Below are positions 22,331-64,000 of a DNA stretch of 64,000 bases, in pieces; within the stretch, counting starts at the first letter, position 1, and every line of letters starts with the position of its first letter. Below the pieces are notes generated by a model. The model was not told the origin of the DNA, did not search any database, and saw nothing but the letters and a program-made list of their open reading frames with translations. The DNA comes from Neoscytalidium dimidiatum (taxonomy: Eukaryota > Ascomycota > Dothideomycetes > Botryosphaeriales > Botryosphaeriaceae). The position numbers and the translations under genes are program-made. The stretch lies in contig CM074703.1 in NCBI GenBank assembly GCA_037367355.1, positions 2,976,001 to 3,040,000 on the forward strand, written 5' to 3'.

Positions 22331-24184
22331 TCAAACATCATGTAAGTTCACCGTAAGCAGCCCTGCTGACCCCGTCAACCCCTGCCGGATCCACCTCACC
22401 TCTCCTCCCTCCTCTCCCGGCATCTTGCCCACCTCCTCCACGATCCCCCACACCCCCGTTCTCGCATCCCTCTCCATATATCTAAGCACAACCCGCTCGC
22501 CCCCCTCCTCAAATACGAACTCCCGCCGCCACAATCTCTGCCACTGCTCTTCCTCCGTCCCCTCGACCGCGTTCGTCCGCTCGATGACATCGCGGTTACG
22601 CACCGCCAACGTGTGCAGCGCGCGCGTGCTCCATAGGCCATCCTGGCCTGGGTAGTCCTGTAGGAGACGCGCCGCCTCGTCGCGCACCAGCGCGTCGCGG
22701 CAATAGAAGGATGTTGTTAGTAGGTACCAAGCGACGTCGCACTGCAGCGAGGCCTGGTGCGCGGGGTTTGTGTTGGCGTGCTTAGCGGCGTGGAGCGCGG
22801 CGCGAGTGAGGGTGAGATATTCGCGAAAGAGGGGTGTGCGGGCGTGCACGTTGGTGGAGGAAAAGAAGGCGGGGGTGTAGTTGAAGATGATGGCGCCAAG
22901 GAGTTGGAGACGGAGGTGGAGGGCGCGAAGGTAGGCGGGGGATTCGGAGGCTGTGGACATGAGGATGTTGTTGAAGAGGGGGAGGAAGGCCGTGTCGAGG
23001 GATTGGAGTCTTTCTCGTCGGGCTGAGCAAAAGGACTCAATGCGGGGATTGTTGAAGAGGTCGAATTGGAAGTCTTTGATGATGGCCTCGTCCTGCGAGC
23101 CCGATATGCCGGAGCTTTGCACGATTTCCGCCACGATGGGGGCAATATCGGTCTGACTGCGCCGGACAGCCATCCAGTGTTCCTCGAATTCATCGAGATT
23201 GTTGAACGCGGCTGGAATGAAACCGATGGTTGCGGAAGCGGGAGATAGTTGGCTCAGGAGGATCATGAAGGATTCCATCGTCTGTTGGTTGTTCTTCAGC
23301 CCCTTTGCGAGGTTTGGCAGGGCTGGGCCGTGGCCAATCTGGCCGCGGATGATGACACGGGTCTGAGTTGCCATTTGAACGAAGACATCTGCCACGGCTC
23401 CGAGGAGAGGCTTTGGGTTTGGCGCGAAGTTGGCTAGGTGGAGGTTTGCATCTCTGCCTGCCAAGAGGGCGAATACCATTGCTAAGCCGTGGTTGACATG
23501 ATCCAAAGCTACCTTCCTGTTGCCTCGGAGTAGTTCAAAGAATAGTAGCAGCAACGACAAAACGACTGCATCCTGTACATGAGCTTGTCGACTCTGCAGT
23601 CTGAGAGAATGGCAGTAGTAAGCGGTAGCACGGAAGTAGTGCACGTCTCCTTCAGCCGATGGGAGAGTTGGTACTGACACTGCGCGAAGTGAGTCGTACT
23701 TGCGCTGACTATGCCACATGCTGAGTGCACCAATTGCCATCGCACCAAAGCGAAGCGTGCTGTTACTGCGGGTGAGTTGGGGCAGAGTCACTCCCCACAA
23801 GTCACCGCTGGACGCAGCGCTGGTCCATGGTCCTTGGACCAACCCCACAAACTCTTGGAAGTAGAGCATACTCGTATCATCTCGGAAATCGATTGAGTCC
23901 GGATTCAATTGAATAGGCATCTTTGGAGGTTCATCACGGGCAACCCGCCTGGCATCCCAACAGAATTGGACGAAGCCGGGGGCCATTTTCTTCTTCGGCT
24001 CGGCGACATAACCTTCGCAATGTCCTCGGCTTTTGAGACAATTGCTGCAATGTGGTCTAGCCTCATCACATCTGATGTGGCGTTTCTTGCAGGTGATGCA
24101 GCCTGTTCGTACTTTGTGTGTGCTTGTACGGGAGAGCTTTGGTTTGCTATGTTGGAGTGACCCATTCTGCGATACGACGGTCAT
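22331..24184 (-). CDS. Zn2Cys6 fungal transcription factor
   Basis: A single exon of 617 residues. The N-terminus carries a textbook binuclear zinc cluster: Cys29-x2-Cys32-x6-Cys39-x6-Cys46-x2-Cys49-x6-Cys56, in VRTGCITCKKRHIRCDEARP and onward, followed by a basic linker (EPKKKMAPG). The remaining 500 residues are helical and hydrophobic, resembling the fungal-specific 'middle homology' regulatory region (for example MLYFQEFVGLVQGPW and ALDHVNHGLAMVFALLAGRD). Such proteins bind CGG-containing sites and control metabolism, efflux or secondary-metabolite genes. Its 3' end faces the ABC transporter, and pairing of a Zn2Cys6 gene with an exporter is a common arrangement. That it regulates this transporter is inference. 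The ATG is the first in frame and directly precedes the cluster. Confidence 0.92.
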   Translation of the reverse strand: MTVVSQNGSLQHSKPKLSRTSTHKVRTGCITCKKRHIRCDEARPHCSNCLKSRGHCEGYVAEPKKKMAPGFVQFCWDARRVARDEPPKMPIQLNPDSIDFRDDTSMLYFQEFVGLVQGPWTSAASSGDLWGVTLPQLTRSNSTLRFGAMAIGALSMWHSQRKYDSLRAVSVPTLPSAEGDVHYFRATAYYCHSLRLQSRQAHVQDAVVLSLLLLFFELLRGNRKVALDHVNHGLAMVFALLAGRDANLHLANFAPNPKPLLGAVADVFVQMATQTRVIIRGQIGHGPALPNLAKGLKNNQQTMESFMILLSQLSPASATIGFIPAAFNNLDEFEEHWMAVRRSQTDIAPIVAEIVQSSGISGSQDEAIIKDFQFDLFNNPRIESFCSARRERLQSLDTAFLPLFNNILMSTASESPAYLRALHLRLQLLGAIIFNYTPAFFSSTNVHARTPLFREYLTLTRAALHAAKHANTNPAHQASLQCDVAWYLLTTSFYCRDALVRDEAARLLQDYPGQDGLWSTRALHTLAVRNRDVIERTNAVEGTEEEQWQRLWRREFVFEEGGERVVLRYMERDARTGVWGIVEEVGKMPGEEGGEVRWIRQGLTGSAGLLTVNLHDV

Positions 24185-24945
24185 CTCCGAAGGGGCAGAT
24201 CTAATGGGAATTCAGCTCTCTGCTCATCCACATCACTCAGATCTATACAGGCTCACGTAGAAGGGGTGCTGGCCAGTCTATTTGTAAGTTCTGCCATCAT
24301 CACCGTCTGTACTAGCGCATCTGATTATTATCTATCCTTAGGAAGCAGGCGAGGCAATGGCTGGAGTCGGTGAGCTCTTTCGTCAGTCGGCCGACATTTC
24401 GAAGAGCCACCGCGCGTTGGGAGTATGTGGACCTGGAGCGGGGACGCGGGTCGTTGCTGATGGCTGACATCGTAGTGGTCTGTCAGGCAGACGCTATTGC
24501 GACAGGCAGCAGCCAGTAATTAGTCAGGTGGTTTTGCACTAAGCCTATTGTAGTATAGATTCCCACGTTGTCCTTCGAGGCCAATCACGTCACTGTTGAA
24601 TCCCCATGGGCTGAGAAAACGCATGATTTCTGGAACGAGAGAATTTTCTGCTGGGCCTGACTAGCTATGGCGCAATGATGTGCTGATTCCGATTCGATCG
24701 CTGATTAATCGTCATTTTAGCTAAAGATGTCACAATGGCAGGATGTACGTTTCGTCTGGCATCGTGTCCCATCCTTGCTGGATGGATCGGCAGATCAATT
24801 TGAGCATGAGTTCAGTTCTAGTATCAGCAGCTCTTTAATATATATACATTCTTAATCGTTTTGCTTCGTTGGTGTCCCCTCGCAATGAAAGAAGATACTT
24901 ATAGTACCTTTACAGACTCGCCATTGACAGCAATAGTAGACCTAG
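24185..24945. other. Region upstream of the Zn2Cys6 gene with a possible coding remnant
   Basis: It contains the promoter of the regulator. On the plus strand there is a possible short spliced coding piece at 24242-24523 (listed separately). The rest, 24524-24945, shows nothing I recognise. Confidence 0.4.
24242..24523 (+). pseudogene. Possible C-terminal coding remnant with two intron-like gaps
   Basis: Three short open pieces join in frame over two good intron-like gaps: 24284-24341 (GTAAGT to CCTTAG) and 24423-24475 (GTATGT with CTGAC, to CGTAG). The joined reading contains AHVEGVLASLF, then EAGEAMAGVGELFRQSADIS, then WSVRQTLLRQAAASN and a stop. There is no clear start: the upstream frame runs back into the divergent regulator gene. 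No family is recognised. It may be the tail of a truncated gene, a small unrecognised gene starting at the ATG at 24357, or coincidence. The splice signals are better than expected by chance. Confidence 0.3.
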
Positions 24946-54255: not shown

Positions 54256-54786
54256 ATGGAGGAAGAACCTGCACAACTCCGAAGGCAACTTGAAGAAGAG
54301 CAGCGTATGCGCGAAGAAGCCGATCGACGGCACAACGCCGAACAACGACGACGAGAAGAAGCTGAAGCGTGAGCGACCGAAGCTACTAGCAATTACGATG
54401 CCGGACGGACGCCGCTGTCGTATGCGGCAGAGTACGGGCGCGAGGCGGTGGTCCAGCTGCTGATCGATCAGGGCGGAGTCGACGTGGACTCCAAGGATAA
54501 GAACGAGTGGACTCCGCCGTCGTGGGCGGCAGAGAACGAGCACGGCGTGGTGCCGCAGCCGCTTCTCGCGAAAGACGGTGTCAAACCCGGACTCTTTCAG
54601 GACCAAAGCACTCGGACACGGCCGGTTCCGGGACCAGATAGTAACAGAACCAGCCTTCAAGAGTATCAAACTCAAGTTATACTACTTGAACAACAGAATA
54701 AGAAGCGTTTAGTAATGGCTCGACGGGAGCAGAAACTTCTGGTTCTAGCCTTTGTCCTGAGCACTAAGGCGTACGAGCTGGTCTAA
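54256..54786 (+). pseudogene. Coiled-coil / ankyrin-repeat gene broken by one in-frame stop
   Basis: An ATG opens a charged coiled coil (MEEEPAQLRRQLEEEQRMRE, 38 residues) that ends at TGA (54370-54372). The same frame then continues without a stop for 137 codons to a TAA-type end at 54786. It includes about one and a half ankyrin repeats (RTPLSYAAEYGREAVVQLLI, then DSKDKNEWTPPSWAAENEHG) and a tail SLQEYQTQVILLEQQNKKRL with further MARREQ. I recall that tail motif as recurrent at the ends of fungal multi-domain proteins. One C-to-T change in a CGA codon would explain the stop. A GTGAGC...CTACTAG gap over the stop is only 21 bases, too short for a normal intron. Most likely a pseudogene fragment of a NACHT/ankyrin-type gene; readthrough is less likely. 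Confidence 0.6.
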
Positions 54787-55317: not shown

Positions 55318-56237
55318 ATGGCGCTGGGTCTGAAGCGCGACAGAATAACGACTTCGGATATGCTTCACAACAGCGCTCAATCCGCGACAGTTGAGGTTCG
55401 CAAGTCGTCTCCGCAAAGCCTCCAATAATAACATGCATAGAACCCGACACAGAGCGCATCCAGCGGGAGTACAAAGCTATGAGGGTATACGAATGTAATG
55501 AAGCCGAACATTCGGCATACGCCTTGCAAGACATATTCCTCGACGAACCTCGACATCCATGGCTCCCAGAGGAAGACGGCGATCAGCGTTGGCTGCCGGT
55601 CCGCATGCTGCAATTTGTTCGGAAGCTGCCGCAGGATGAATGGCATGCCCCCCCACTTATCGGCTCGCTCAGGAAACGATACGAGTGGGACATTCGCCCT
55701 GACTGCGCGTACCACGTCTCCCTCCAGGCCTTCCAACCCGGCTTCCGCCCGAGCGTTCGAAAACATGTCTCCGTCGTGCAGAAGCGAGCCTTTTGCCCTT
55801 ACCTGACCATCGAGTTCAAGAAGGACGAAGAGACTCTCGCCACAGCCCGCCACCAGGTCGCCGTCGCCTCAGCCATGGCATTGTACAATCGTTATCGGTT
55901 GAAGAACTGCGCGCTTCAAATGAGTGGCGGAAAGTGGTCTGAAGAGGATATGAACCAGATGCGCCACTACGGCATCACATTCACTGGATCGACTTGGGAC
56001 CTGTGGTGCACCGTGCCGAAGACATTTGAAACTTGGACTGGCTGCAGCATGTCCACCATCTACTCTGGCGACTGCTGCATCCTTGCCGGCGTCCAGCAGT
56101 TGGTGAGGATCGTCAACGACATTCATTACTGGGGACTGGAGGTACATGGCAGGTCCTGCAAGGCCGACATTGCTGCTAAAATACATTCCGACCCTGATGC
56201 GGACACGAATGATATCACGTTACTGGAAGAAGATTGA
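55318..56237 (+). pseudogene. PD-(D/E)XK-like (restriction-fold) fungal gene, apparently frameshifted near the 5' end
   Basis: The main frame (stop at 56237) encodes ERIQREYKAMRVYECNEAEH, then WLPVRMLQFVRKLPQDEW and YEWDIRPDCAYHVSLQAF, a nuclease-like core CPYLTIEFKKDEETLATARH, and MRHYGITFTGSTWDLWCTVP. The Pro-Asp in RPDC and the Glu-x-Lys in TIEFKK fit the PD-(D/E)XK pattern seen in several fungal families of unknown function (DUF7924-like). The natural N-terminus (ATG 55318, MALGLKRDRITTSDML to ATVEVRK) lies in another frame that stops at 55426. The two frames overlap only in 55395-55425, with no room for an intron, so a small insertion or deletion is likely. If the gene instead starts at the ATG at 55479 it encodes an intact 252-residue protein. 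Function unknown. Confidence 0.6.
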
Positions 56238-57445
56238 ATGAAATCAACTGTTCGCAATTCACTATTATGTTAACTTCCCTTCTCCTCGTAGCTGCACACG
56301 GCCTTTATTTATTTAGAGCGACCGTCAAAAGGACAAAACCGCTCAGTGAAAACGTCCGCTCAAGTCAGCGCAGTGTTAAGACTCTTTTATAAACATAGGC
56401 GCTTCTTAAGAGATAGCATTTCCTTGATAATAAACGTGCTTTGCCAAGGGCCCAACGCTGATCTGCCCTAGCTCCCGTTCTGGTTCCCACTAGGGGACCC
56501 TAATCCAGTCCCCGCCGATTTCGAGTATAGTTAGGACCCCTATCTTACCCTAAAGATTCGATCTAATCGTAGTTAAGAACTATACTTTAAAAGTATCTTA
56601 GCGCTTACTATATCTCTACTATAGTGATAATAATATCTATTATAATCTCTTTCTTTATTCTACGCTAAAATAACAATAAACGCCTTTTACATCTATATAT
56701 ATATTTAAAATATCCTCTGGCGCAGAGAGGTAGTGTAGAGTAGCAGTTTCCGTCGTCTATGTGTGCGAAATGGAGAGGACATGCGGTAGTCTGCTAACAT
56801 GCAGATGCGGCGTGCCTGGGCGCGCGTGCGTGTCCAAAGTCAGCATTCTGGGCAGAGATGTTCGGCACGGTGAGGATGAAGCGCCAAGGTTACAACTGCA
56901 TACCAGGAGATAGAGCGGCAGCCAATCGCGGAAGCGGCCTAACACAGAAATAGAGTACTGCAGTGGTCGGTAGGGGAGCGCATCTGTGTGCGCGGGATAG
57001 GCATACAACGATTCGGCTCATTCGCGCAGTGAGGGCGATGGGTCACGGTGTCTAGCACGTCCGTCATCGAGCAGTGCGTCAACATCCCCTCCACGACGTC
57101 GCCGCGGGCTCACAAGGTCTAGCAGATTCAGGTTATAATCCGGGGTTAGAGTTATTCTGTCCCGAGGAGCCAAGCCGATGCGTTATCTTAGTCATTTTTA
57201 CGTGGCAAGCGGGTCATGTGCCCTTCTTGTTCGTTCCATCATCAGTGAAATAATCGTTGTTCATCAAAGTTATAGGCCCGGAATCACTTCCAAAGCCGTT
57301 GTTTCTCGTTTAATCCCATGCGCTTAGAACATTCTGTGGCACCCGGAAGAACACCGGTTGTTTTTAGCAACACATTGCGACCGAGCGACGGCTTCCCTCC
57401 ACCCATCAACAGCCAATCACAACACAACGCGGGCCCTCAGCAGCC
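56238..57445. other. AT-rich degenerate DNA, then leader of the HNH-like gene
   Basis: From about 56500 to 56720 the sequence is strongly AT-rich and TpA-rich (runs such as ATATATATTTAAAATATCC). This is typical of repeat-induced point mutation in old transposon remnants; no element is recognisable. The right part (56740-57445) returns to normal composition and probably contains the promoter of the next gene. Confidence 0.5.
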
Positions 57446-58849
57446 ATGTCGCGTCCACCGCTCGACATCAACGGTGGACCCCCTCAATTACTACCGCACA
57501 CTGGGCAGCCAGCGGCACTCTCAGATGTGCCTTCGCTGACTGCCGACATCAACTCGTCTATACAATCGCCAGCCCTGTCGGAGTTTCGGCAGCCCACGGC
57601 ACCGTCCTCGCACGGGAAGAGGCGCGCCCGAGATGACGATACAGTCTCCCGGACATCCTCCCTCCCCAAGAAGTCGAAAGTGAGCGAGTCGACGTCCGTG
57701 AAATCTTATAGGGAGCAGCTGCAAGAACAATATGCTGGCTGCTGTGTATGTCAGGTCACTTACTACCTTCATGCTGCTCGCGTTATCGACAAGGCTGCTT
57801 TCCCCGATTTCCGGAAGATCCGCGACCAAGGACTAGTTAGCTTAGAGACCATTGGCGATTTCGACAATGCCATCTACCTATGTCCCGCCGATCACGCCGC
57901 CTTTGATGCCAGCGACCCCGGGCTCATTATCGTCCCTACATACCTTGACTTCTTCATCGAACATGAACAACGTTGGCAAGATGAGATGAGGAAGTCGACG
58001 CGCCCAACCACTCGTCCTCCTGTGTTGCCGAGTCAATATGCTGCACACTGCGCCATACCGGAGAACGATCCGAAGAGCGGTCTGTACACAGCATACATGG
58101 TGGTGGACTATAAGGAGAAAGGCAAGATCGCCCCACCATGCAATTTTCAGTGGCATGGGGATCCAGGTGCGATCATCTGGAAAGCACGTCGCCTCATGAG
58201 CTCTCAGCTGTCGTTGCTCGATCTGGAGCCGGGGCATCTGCAACAGCTGTTGAAGGTCAGGGAGAAGCTCGACGAACTCAAAAAACTGCAAGAGAATGGA
58301 GACTTCGGGCGGAGAAACCGGATCAACGCCTCCAAGTTACCGGATGATTCCACTGGCGATAGGCCACCGCCATCAGAGCCTTCCAACTACGTTGGCAACG
58401 GCACTAGAGGCGACCTCTCTGGAAGCACCAACCCTCCTCCGCCGCAATCCGGCAAACCTGCCCCTGCGGATCAGAGTCCATATTGCACACCCTATCCCAC
58501 CACGCGGTCGGCCCCACCGAATACTGCGCTGTGTCCAGAGTTGCGTGGAGCCAAACAGAAACAAGTAGACCTTAACCTTTGCGATAATAATGAGGACACT
58601 CTGCATATTCCTGTTAGTGAGGCAGGCCGCTCTTTTAAGCGCGTCAAGCGCATGAGCAACGACGGTGCATCCTCGCAGCGACATCCCGAGAATCGCACGC
58701 AAGATCACCGTTGGGGAGGCTCTGATTCGTCCACCGAGGACACGGTGCGGTACTGGAATGCTATTTTCGGACCTCAACCTCGTCAGCCTAAGCCGAGTAT
58801 CAGGTCTCAACGCTTAACTTGCAGTCGCTCACTACCAGTAGATACCTAG
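57446..58849 (+). CDS. Fungal HNH-nuclease-like protein, metal site partly lost
   Basis: One exon of 467 residues. After a disordered Ser/Pro-rich N-terminus with a basic KKSKVSES patch, residues about 88-180 resemble the fungal HNH (HNH_2-like) domain: QLQEQYAGCCVCQVTYYLHA, ARVIDKAAFPDF, then DNAIYLCPADHAAFDASDPG and LIIVPTYLDFFIEHE. In members I recall, the two ligand motifs read Ala-Cys-His-Val and Cys-Pro-x-Cys-His. Here they are Ala-Ala-Arg-Val and Cys-Pro-Ala-Asp-His, so catalysis may be lost. A helical segment (LSLLDLEPGHLQQLLKVREK) and a long Pro/Asn/Ser-rich C-terminus follow. Such proteins are common, variable accessory genes in Pezizomycotina; their biological role is not established. 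Confidence 0.75.
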   Translation: MSRPPLDINGGPPQLLPHTGQPAALSDVPSLTADINSSIQSPALSEFRQPTAPSSHGKRRARDDDTVSRTSSLPKKSKVSESTSVKSYREQLQEQYAGCCVCQVTYYLHAARVIDKAAFPDFRKIRDQGLVSLETIGDFDNAIYLCPADHAAFDASDPGLIIVPTYLDFFIEHEQRWQDEMRKSTRPTTRPPVLPSQYAAHCAIPENDPKSGLYTAYMVVDYKEKGKIAPPCNFQWHGDPGAIIWKARRLMSSQLSLLDLEPGHLQQLLKVREKLDELKKLQENGDFGRRNRINASKLPDDSTGDRPPPSEPSNYVGNGTRGDLSGSTNPPPPQSGKPAPADQSPYCTPYPTTRSAPPNTALCPELRGAKQKQVDLNLCDNNEDTLHIPVSEAGRSFKRVKRMSNDGASSQRHPENRTQDHRWGGSDSSTEDTVRYWNAIFGPQPRQPKPSIRSQRLTCSRSLPVDT

Positions 58850-60910: not shown

Positions 60911-61610
60911 TTACTTCTCTGTACACTTGCACAGGCCATCCACCACAGTCCCCCTTGCTGAAAATCCATTCGCCTCCGAGCATGCTCTAGTGCAAGCGTC
61001 ATCGCTTGTGATCTGGCTGGACAGTCAGCACATATTCCCTTTAAGTCTTGCCCCACTCGAGACTCACGTCGCAGTTGCAGCCGTAGTAGGTGTTGTCTAA
61101 ATTTCCATTGGCTCCGGTTACGCATGTCATGAGATCTGTATACTTCTTGAAAACTTTGTCAATCACCTACAAAAGACGATGGTTAGTGGCCTATGAATGC
61201 CTCTTCACTGTTCGAGGAGCCAAACCGGATCATCTGAATATGTCTGGTCTGCACAAAGCGGGGGACACTGGTCATCACTCCGGCACTTTGGAACAGGAAA
61301 AATGTTAGCAATGGTCAAGTGAGAATCTGGTGCTTCGGAGAATCTTACGTAGCAATCGCACACTGGTTCCGGCTGGAGATCGTACGCGCATGTTCCGAGG
61401 GGCGCGCCGCTGCGAACAGTAGGCGGACCCTTACAAAACCGAACGCATTCCTGGTCATTTGTGCATGGATGCCACTTTAAATTTTTTTAATAGAAGTTCA
61501 ATGGCAACAAAGGTAAGATCAATCACCTTTTCATTAGAAGAGCCCTGAGGGTGACCAGAGACCGAGGAGAGGAAACCGAAACTAAGAAACACGACTGCAA
61601 AGAATTGCAT
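60911..61610 (-). CDS. Secreted protein with three tandem defensin-like (CS-alpha-beta) modules
   Basis: Five exons (61610-61527, 61474-61349, 61285-61226, 61166-61068, 61012-60911) give 156 residues. All four introns (52-63 bases) are GT-AG and phase 0, and three have clear CTAAC/CTGAC branch sites. Residues 1-19 form a signal peptide (MQFFAVVFLSFGFLSSVSG). Module 1 has cysteines 32, 38, 42, 57, 67 and 69: C-x5-C-x3-C-x14-C-x9-C-x-C. Module 2 has 71, 77, 81, 105, 120 and 122: C-x5-C-x3-C-x23-C-x14-C-x-C. Module 3 has 130, 134, 151 and 153: C-x3-C-x16-C-x-C. The C-x3-C helix plus C-x-C hairpin is the cysteine-stabilised alpha-beta signature of defensins. Peptide family members are usually antimicrobial or interact with membranes or receptors. 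The role here (antimicrobial or host effector) is inferred. Module 3 lacks one disulfide. A TATA-like box lies upstream. Confidence 0.8.
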
Positions 61611-61673: not shown

Positions 61674-61686
61674 AAATATATATTAG
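61674..61686 (-). promoter_or_regulatory. TATA-like box of the cysteine-rich secreted gene
   Basis: On the minus strand the sequence reads TAATATATATTTACA, ending about 64 bases before the ATG. That distance is suitable for a fungal TATA box with a short leader. Confidence 0.45.
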
Positions 61687-64000
61687 ACGAGTTTTCTAAG
61701 TATTAGAGTTACTTCTCTACTTGCCAAAAATAGAAGGCGAATAGAGTTGGAAAATCATTCAGACTGAAGGACCGATTAATCTCCGCCCGCATCCGTACGA
61801 AGAATATCATATGTCTTCGTGACAAGCGGAAAACAAAATTTACTAGCTGTCTTTCCTATGAATCAGTTCGATTCGTTCAATTCAAGTCAAGTTCGGCTTC
61901 TTGAATGCGGCTTGTAGCGCTTTTCACCTGCACTATTTAGGTTTCTGGTAACTGAGTAATCATACGCCTGTTGAGCTTTTCAATATGCAAAAGAATGCAT
62001 CTGGCAATAACCATGATCCATGAATCTGGGTTTCTCTATGAAATGGTGCGCTCGATTCGAGAACTTAAGGAAAATGTGTCATGAGTATACGCAAAGCCGA
62101 GACTAGACTGTATCAACCGAACAACCCAAATGCCGTCAATTCCGAGTTCCGAGGGGCCTGTGAACTCTTGATCATCTTGAACTCATCCAGATTGCCTTTC
62201 GAATCTGATGCACAACACTTGACTCTGCCGATCCCGCACCTAGCCTCGCCGCCTCCAACAACCCGAATCATGTGCGCCAGATCTCATCATTTTGTTGAAA
62301 CAAAAAGCGATGCTTGAATTATCCTTGCGTGCATTAAATTGCAACACATTCTACCAATTCACTTCCTTCAATTTCTCAACCAAATATACCATCGTCAATA
62401 CCCTTAATCTAGCCATCCCGTCATACCTTCTTAACAAGGCATTATGCAAAGCGCCTATGTATCTTTCCTCGCTCGGTCCGCTAATCCTGATCGCCACAAT
62501 GCCTGCCGACCTTCGGAAAGCCAGCACGGCAACTACTCCGCTCAATGAAGTGCGCATAATGTATACAATATCAAGACCACAAGCGTAAGAATGAGAAGCA
62601 CGATGCCAGGCATTTCAATTTTATGCAAGACGCGATTCAATATTTAACCGCTTTAGATAACTCCGGCTGTATCCTTCAAGCTGCGCGCAACTGTGACATG
62701 AAAAATAATCTCTCTCCAGATCACTTTTGCTACCTTTCCACACTTGTAGACAGACACTCCTTCTCGTTCGTTTTCGGTGCTCTCACTTGCCTCCAATCTT
62801 CCACACGCTCCGGCAGTCAGATCCTACTCCATGCCGCAGAGAAGATAACGGCAATCACTATTCATAAAAAGAGTTGAAATAATTCATCATCATAATTCGG
62901 TTTCGTCGAATTTGGCAGCTGCGTCAAGGGGGACTTTTCTCAGCACAGCTCAAAGAGGTTTGCACATATCTCTTAACACAATCTAGTCCCCGCTGAGGAG
63001 TTCTCTGAGCAGACTATAAGACCTTAGTGCGTTTTTCTTTCTTTCTTTCTTTCTTTCTTAAGACAGCTTCTCATGACTGTGCATTGGGGAATGGTAAAGT
63101 GACTCTGAGATCAGACATAAAGGTTCTCCAGACTTAAACGTATATTCTGCAGCTTCTCACGAAATGCAACGGCTGCATACTCTACACAGTAGAACACGAA
63201 AGTCGCATCAATGCAACATCTTTGTTGACCTGGAGCAAATTCCTCACATAACTCAACATGACCCTTACTTCCCGCTGTTAAGCATGTCCCATCTTGTTTA
63301 TCTCCGTTCTATATGCTAGGAGAGTCCATGTCCAATGTTGATACCGCTGAGCAGCGTTACCAATTGCAGCTCATCACAATAAGCTCGCCATACTTCCCGT
63401 TAGCATTTGTGGGTGTTGCTGCTTGGATGATGTACTAGGCTGTAGAGATGTAGTCAAGAAGCAGTGAGATTACGGAACAGTGTGAATGTAGTCCACCTTG
63501 GCGTCGCGAGGCAGGTGTTTCCTTACCGACACAGCCACGAGCCTTTCTCCCCGAGCAGTTCCATGCACATGTTGCACATGCCCCAGAGCCGCCTTGTGAC
63601 AAGACAGCCAAGGTTCATAACTTGACCCGCTCGGTCAGACTCCAAAACAGTGGCGGTTAAGGTTGAAAGCAACCCGAACAGATTTCTCTTTCAAAACTCA
63701 TCACTCATCCATATTCCAGACATGGAATCATAGGCTTTGTCCACTGATTCAGGTTCAAAGACCCACCAACTCGCTCGGATCGATGCTATAGTCTTGACTT
63801 TCTTTGCCCGAGCCGAGACCGCCCCTCCTTCTCACGATTTCACTTGATCCGCAAGTACGAAATTCTTCAAGACACGATTCAGGAGCGCCTAATCATTTAG
63901 TGGTGCTGATGCTCTTCTACGACATTATCAGATATCAAGTCTCCAAATGAGCTCAAATTGAAGATCGTAGCCAGGAGTCAGTGCACAACATTGCAAAGTA
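61687..64000. other. Right-end region without a recognised gene
   Basis: 2.3 kb of moderately AT-rich DNA. Open frames at 62081-62317, 62292-62588 and 62623-62877 are short, lack domains and show no linked splice signals. I see only the TTTC repeat near 63034 and no RNA gene. Confidence 0.45.
63034..63059. repeat. (TTTC)n microsatellite
   Basis: About six TTTC copies in intergenic DNA. Confidence 0.85.

Follow-up and report, generated by a model that had tools for sequence, protein, structure and literature searches.

At 60911..61610 on the minus strand of a 64,000-nucleotide stretch of Neoscytalidium dimidiatum DNA (the window, taken throughout as the whole of this stretch), we identified what is probably, at a probability that we put at roughly 0.6, a real, intron-rich fungal gene whose product would be a secreted chain of three modules of the cysteine-stabilized alpha-beta (CS-alpha-beta) type, grown by duplication of phase-0 exon units and working uncut. 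Splicing of the minus-strand sequence removes four GT-AG introns, all of phase 0, and joins five exons into a reading frame of 156 residues with 16 cysteines, which reproduces the structure and the coordinates of the original prediction for this locus.

The presence of three spliceable CxxxC...CxC modules at this locus is beyond chance. As a measure we took the maximal number of C-x3-C-x8..40-C-x-C units in any ATG-to-stop chain; splicing could remove no more than four GT-AG introns, each 45-100 nt long and of whatever phase. Uncut, the locus scores three modules and its opposite strand none. When the locus was shuffled 10,000 times with its dinucleotide composition kept, no shuffle reached three modules (7,419 gave zero, 2,570 one and 11 two). 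Nor did any of 1,388 overlapping 730-nt tiles covering both strands of 264 kb of the same genome, made up of the window and twenty 10-kb stretches of its contig (1,191 tiles with zero modules, 193 with one and four with two, one of these four being the locus when split by the border of a tile). A pilot run gave the same picture, with 0/100 shuffles and 0/300 tiles at three modules. When no splicing is allowed, the 527,916 six-frame residues of the 264 kb contain 16 CxxxC...CxC patterns, 14 CX5CX3C patterns and two full six-cysteine patterns, of which the 700-base locus supplies two, two and one, respectively, every one of them from a single strand. The other full six-cysteine CxxxC...CxC pattern, found unspliced at 54302 on the minus strand of the same window, may be due to chance, and because of it a single pattern of this kind means little. 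The GC content is 51% in the exons and 42% in the introns; given this difference, the null tests and the base rate, the gene-level signal is therefore real.

The cysteines of the three modules are separated by 5, 3, 14, 9 and 1 residues in module 1, by 5, 3, 23, 14 and 1 in module 2, and by 3, 16 and 1 in module 3. These spacings confirm that modules 1 and 2 share C-x5-C-x3-C and that C-x3-C...C-x-C occurs in each of the three segments, being all that module 3 holds. The CS-alpha-beta framework has been given as C1...C2-x3-C3...C4...C5-x-C6 (PMC5234102). Modules 1 and 2 contain this framework in full and module 3 contains its core (C2, C3, C5 and C6); in an alignment with noxiustoxin, module 3 has Ile at the C1 position and Val at the C4 position. 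In insect defensins the disulfides connect C1-C4, C2-C5 and C3-C6 (PMC11116330). What module 3 lacks is exactly C1 and C4, the partners of one native disulfide, with neither C2-C5 nor C3-C6 touched. Judged from the sequence, loss of both partners of a single bridge would be expected of a folded, selected module and would be hard to get from chance cysteines.

For module 3, AlphaFold2 predicts a helix and a hairpin with a mean predicted local distance difference test score (pLDDT) of 89.9, and 47/50 structural neighbors among the matches listed are titled as CS-alpha-beta folds, the remaining three as cystine-dense peptide only, so that the predicted fold of this module is well supported. The model of module 1 (E-H-E-E-E, pLDDT 74) lends moderate support to the same predicted fold, and module 2 would share it by its cysteine pattern alone. 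Profile searches gave module 1 a match to Pfam Defensin_like (PF10868) at E 0.0074, with 17.4 of the 25.1 bits of the cut-off, and a match to Toxin_2 (PF00451) with 10.4 of 25.1 bits, both under the cut-off. None of the three families, Defensin_2 (PF01097) included, was listed for module 2, module 3 or the full-length protein, and the curated cut-offs of the three families are reached by neither the whole protein nor any module.

The modules also resemble one another in residues other than cysteine. Over a 12-column stretch around C1-C3, picked by eye and scored on non-cysteine residues, the three-module total was reached by 0.06% of 20,000 composition-matched shuffles; the pairwise values were 0.18% for modules 1 and 3, 2.9% for modules 2 and 3 and 9.9% for modules 1 and 2, the last not significant. 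These shared residues support internal duplication, as had been proposed from the exon layout. Each module lies between phase-0 introns and could therefore be copied without a break of the frame. A single residue, Tyr70, separates C6 of module 1 from C1 of module 2.

A search with the whole protein against 5.8 billion proteins returned eight word-sharing candidates, none of which scored, and a search of the same set with the three-module alignment returned no candidate. As a control we searched with a Zn2Cys6 transcription factor encoded in the window, for which 183 proteins were found at E <=1e-10 (7,999 candidates scored); the best relative is 61% identical, and among the 120 matches listed the named relatives are fungal, members of the Pezizomycotina among them. 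Because the best relative of the control is merely 61% identical, the species and its close kin seem to be missing from the database, as far as one control gene can tell, which suggests a poorly sampled lineage. With its own proteome and near kin apparently missing, the negative homologue search is no proof that the gene is an orphan. No second copy of the gene was found in the 43.8-Mb, 40-contig genome, where a six-frame protein search gave five matches, all of them its own exons. Elsewhere in the genome, PF01097 and PF00451 have short sub-threshold matches only, and both also match bacterial or archaeal controls. PF10868 has zero matches across the genome; this search missed even module 1 and is therefore no proof of the absence of the family. 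Fungal defensin-like peptides (fDLPs) are recognized by a fungal gene, a signal peptide, a CS-alpha-beta domain and sequence likeness to one of the named fungal defensin (fDEF) families; here we found a control protein with fungal relatives, a signal-like start, the predicted fold of module 3 and no homologue.

The exact splice junctions are less sure than the gene-level signal. Donors and branch sites are good in introns 2 and 4, and intron 4 comes out best by a crude splice score with hand-set weights. The weak points are the poor donors of introns 1 (GTGATT) and 3 (GTTTGG) and the standing of the model by the same score, which places it 10th among 160 models with three modules; in the nine above it, intron 1, 2 or 3 ends at a different acceptor, and the cysteines number 14 or 15. 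Retention of intron 4 would place an in-frame stop shortly past module 2. A Foldseek search with module 1 found no related structural match. The earlier claim of three CS-alpha-beta modules stands in part: for the cysteine core in all three, for the predicted fold of module 3 and for a compatible predicted fold of module 1. Retention of intron 2 would leave the chain open, as seen in a 93-residue open reading frame (ORF) at 61205-61486 on the minus strand, in which the frame of exon 2 continues across intron 2 into exon 3. Such retentions, the weak donors of introns 1 and 3 and the two cysteines missing from module 3 would all fit an improbable alternative in which the exons are real and the products shorter, for example a chain that ends past module 2 when intron 4 is retained, or a pseudogene with a decayed module 3. 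However, module 3 misses exactly one disulfide pair and is still predicted to fold, and intron 4 is the one that scores best. We consider it very improbable that there is no gene here and that chance cysteine codons met with fortuitous splice sites. The lack of homologues in the protein search and the two weak donors would agree with this, but no shuffle and no tile equalled the locus, and the predicted fold and the likeness of the modules exceed a mere count of cysteines.

The predicted chain begins as expected of a secreted protein, with a mean hydropathy of 1.86 over residues 2-17 and a plausible signal cleavage, judged by eye, near residue 19. From residue 20 onwards it has an isoelectric point of 4.53 and a charge of -8.2, all three modules being acidic (-2.2, -5.3 and -1.3 for modules 1, 2 and 3). 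No KR or RR site is present in the chain, and its sole dibasic pair, a KK at residue 97, falls within module 2. Since the chain is acidic and has no KR/RR site, it is probably left uncut and is probably not a classical cationic antibiotic. Cutting of the three modules after secretion into separate defensin-like peptides is unlikely: two defensins could be freed from each of five fungal precursors once a spacer is removed (PMC4165938), but here neither a spacer nor a KR/RR site lies between the modules. Use of the secreted protein as an antimicrobial against competing microbes, in the manner of the antifungal effector VdAMP3, has a better claim, even if we regard it as doubtful. The predicted CS-alpha-beta fold of module 3, with its structural neighbors, speaks for it, as does the fact that VdAMP3 is itself a CS-alpha-beta defensin with antifungal activity (PMC9438471), and it stays a serious rival because an anionic antibacterial fungal defensin has been described, AfusinC (cited in PMC7711571). 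On the other side stand the acidity of all three modules, the finding that more than 70% of the defensin-like proteins of Zymoseptoria are neutral or acidic, with the authors doubting an immune role, and the cases of pechrysin and anisin-1, which are said to have lost their antibacterial activity (both in PMC5234102).

Returning to the uncut three-module chain, we infer its splicing, secretion, module 2 fold, disulfides, uncleaved state and multivalent binding as follows. The gene would have grown into one for a three-module chain by duplicating phase-0 exon units. Once the signal is cleaved, eight disulfides would form. Modules 1 and 2 would hold three each and module 3 would hold two, having lost its C1-C4 bridge as a pair and kept the helix-to-sheet bridges C2-C5 and C3-C6. 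Abutting one another with no KR/RR site, the modules would most likely make one compact acidic molecule, which, fully oxidized and uncut, would bind an extracellular partner, possibly multivalently through several similar faces; multivalent action has been argued for tandem cysteine-rich proteins (PMC6262176). It would not be a precursor of cationic membrane-active peptides. The fuller version of this reading, in which an uncleaved fungal three-module CS-alpha-beta chain arose from symmetric phase-0 exons, lost C1 and C4 of its last module in concert and serves as an acidic trivalent extracellular ligand and no antibiotic, is tentative. Potassium-channel block of the scorpion type was considered and rejected: its signature in scorpion alpha-KTx toxins, K-C4-X-N (PMC5004176), is absent from all three modules, and module 3, with four cysteines, differs from the alpha-KTx noxiustoxin in having neither C1 nor C4.

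The statement in the original prediction that fungal defensins are normally single-module proved overstated. The five two-defensin precursors are beauvesin2, manisin, pochlasin2, asosin and maglosin (PMC4165938), Bizyarsin of Zymoseptoria ardabiliae has two defensin domains (PMC5234102), and the internal repeats of nasonins are called 'as described in fungal DLPs' in PMC2853521. The chain described here is like these fungal two-domain proteins in its origin and in having more than one CS-alpha-beta unit (PMC5234102, PMC4165938), and like the two-defensin precursors in its putative signal peptide (PMC4165938). In the related Zytrisin genes an intron of phase 0 lies where the signal peptide ends, which is about the place of intron 1 here (PMC5234102). 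In contrast to the two-domain proteins as described, it has three modules, no spacer propeptide and a four-cysteine module 3, and it departs from the two-defensin precursor arrangement in its three modules, with a one-residue junction between modules 1 and 2 and no KR/RR site. Nasonin-2 and nasonin-6 of the wasp Nasonia vitripennis likewise carry several CS-alpha-beta repeats per chain with no protease processing signals, and nasonin-6 has one exon per module, which was read as exon duplication (PMC2853521). However, these are insect proteins with four to five repeats and phase-1 introns, whereas the introns here are of phase 0, the modules number three and module 2 is split by an intron. Secreted cysteine-rich repeat proteins (SCREPs) such as DkTx are similar in that disulfide-rich modules follow one another in tandem, in some cases across very short linkers, and in their proposed multivalent action (PMC6262176). 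The examples described there have animal modules of the inhibitor cystine knot, Kunitz or Kazal types, against fungal CS-alpha-beta modules here; this is an analogy of working and not membership. Our literature search, which did not cover Zhu 2008 (Mol Immunol), the paper cited for internal repeats in fungal defensin-like peptides, found no three-module fungal chain with no spacer, phase-0 exons and a four-cysteine last module, so that a fungal protein with three repeats may have been published before. On its sequence, the locus is best called an extension of the published two-module and repeated defensin-like proteins and not a new kind.

If spliced and secreted as read here, the gene would enlarge the two-module layout of fungal defensin-like proteins to three modules with no cleavable spacer, in parallel to the wasp nasonins and by way of a different intron phase. 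It also illustrates how genes of this sort can escape annotation, since it has no exon above 42 codons and no Pfam model at its cut-off. The joint absence of C1 and C4 would offer a clean test of disulfide evolution within the CS-alpha-beta fold. The features are listed in Table 1.

Table 1. Parts of the predicted gene, and the control gene, by position in the window
Feature	Positions	Strand	Remarks
Whole predicted gene, ATG to TAA	60911..61610	-	156 residues, 16 cysteines; rebuilt from sequence, null tests
Exon 1, signal-like peptide and short spacer	61527..61610	-	84 nt, 28 residues; signal judged by eye
Intron 1, phase 0	61475..61526	-	52 nt; weak donor GTGATT
Exon 2, module 1, six cysteines	61349..61474	-	126 nt; C-x5-C-x3-C-x14-C-x9-C-x-C
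Intron 2, phase 0	61286..61348	-	63 nt; donor GTAAGA, branch TGCTAAC; no in-frame stop
Exon 3, module 2, first half	61226..61285	-	60 nt; C-x5-C-x3-C
Intron 3, phase 0, within module 2	61167..61225	-	59 nt; weak donor GTTTGG, branch CACTAAC, acceptor TAG
Exon 4, module 2, second half	61068..61166	-	99 nt; C...C-x-C
Intron 4, phase 0	61013..61067	-	55 nt; donor GTGAGT, branch TGCTGAC
Exon 5, module 3, four cysteines, stop TAA	60911..61012	-	102 nt; C-x3-C-x16-C-x-C
TATA-like stretch	61674..61685	-	64-75 bases 5' of ATG; by eye, putative function
Zn2Cys6 transcription factor, one exon	22334-24187	-	618 residues; control protein for database search

The DNA of the gene (C9:3036911-3037610) occurs once in the genome, on a contig of 3.45 Mb and 410 kb from the contig end, and a ribosomal protein S11 gene is encoded in the same window. 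The proposal that the gene sits in an unstable accessory island found no support in these observations and was set aside, the gene being single-copy, the contig of that length and the S11 gene present, with one dispersed 54-base repeat nearby; a neighboring 492-residue ORF is single-copy as well. The repeat, an element of about 54 bases at 62293-62346 with inverted ends TGTTG/CAACA, lies 0.7 kb upstream of the gene. At least 28 other matches to it, with identities of 84-96%, are spread over many contigs, and its edges are sharp across five aligned copies; no match was found in Rfam. The 492-residue ORF consists of a single exon (57371-58849, plus strand) and shows, by eye, an HNH-like CxxC...H...C pattern; it gave no Pfam match at E 0.01 and no second genomic copy. 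Another ORF at 55398-56237 on the plus strand weakly matches DUF7924, with 26.8 of 27 bits, and PDDEXK_12, with 20.6 of 27 bits, and may encode a protein with a nuclease fold.
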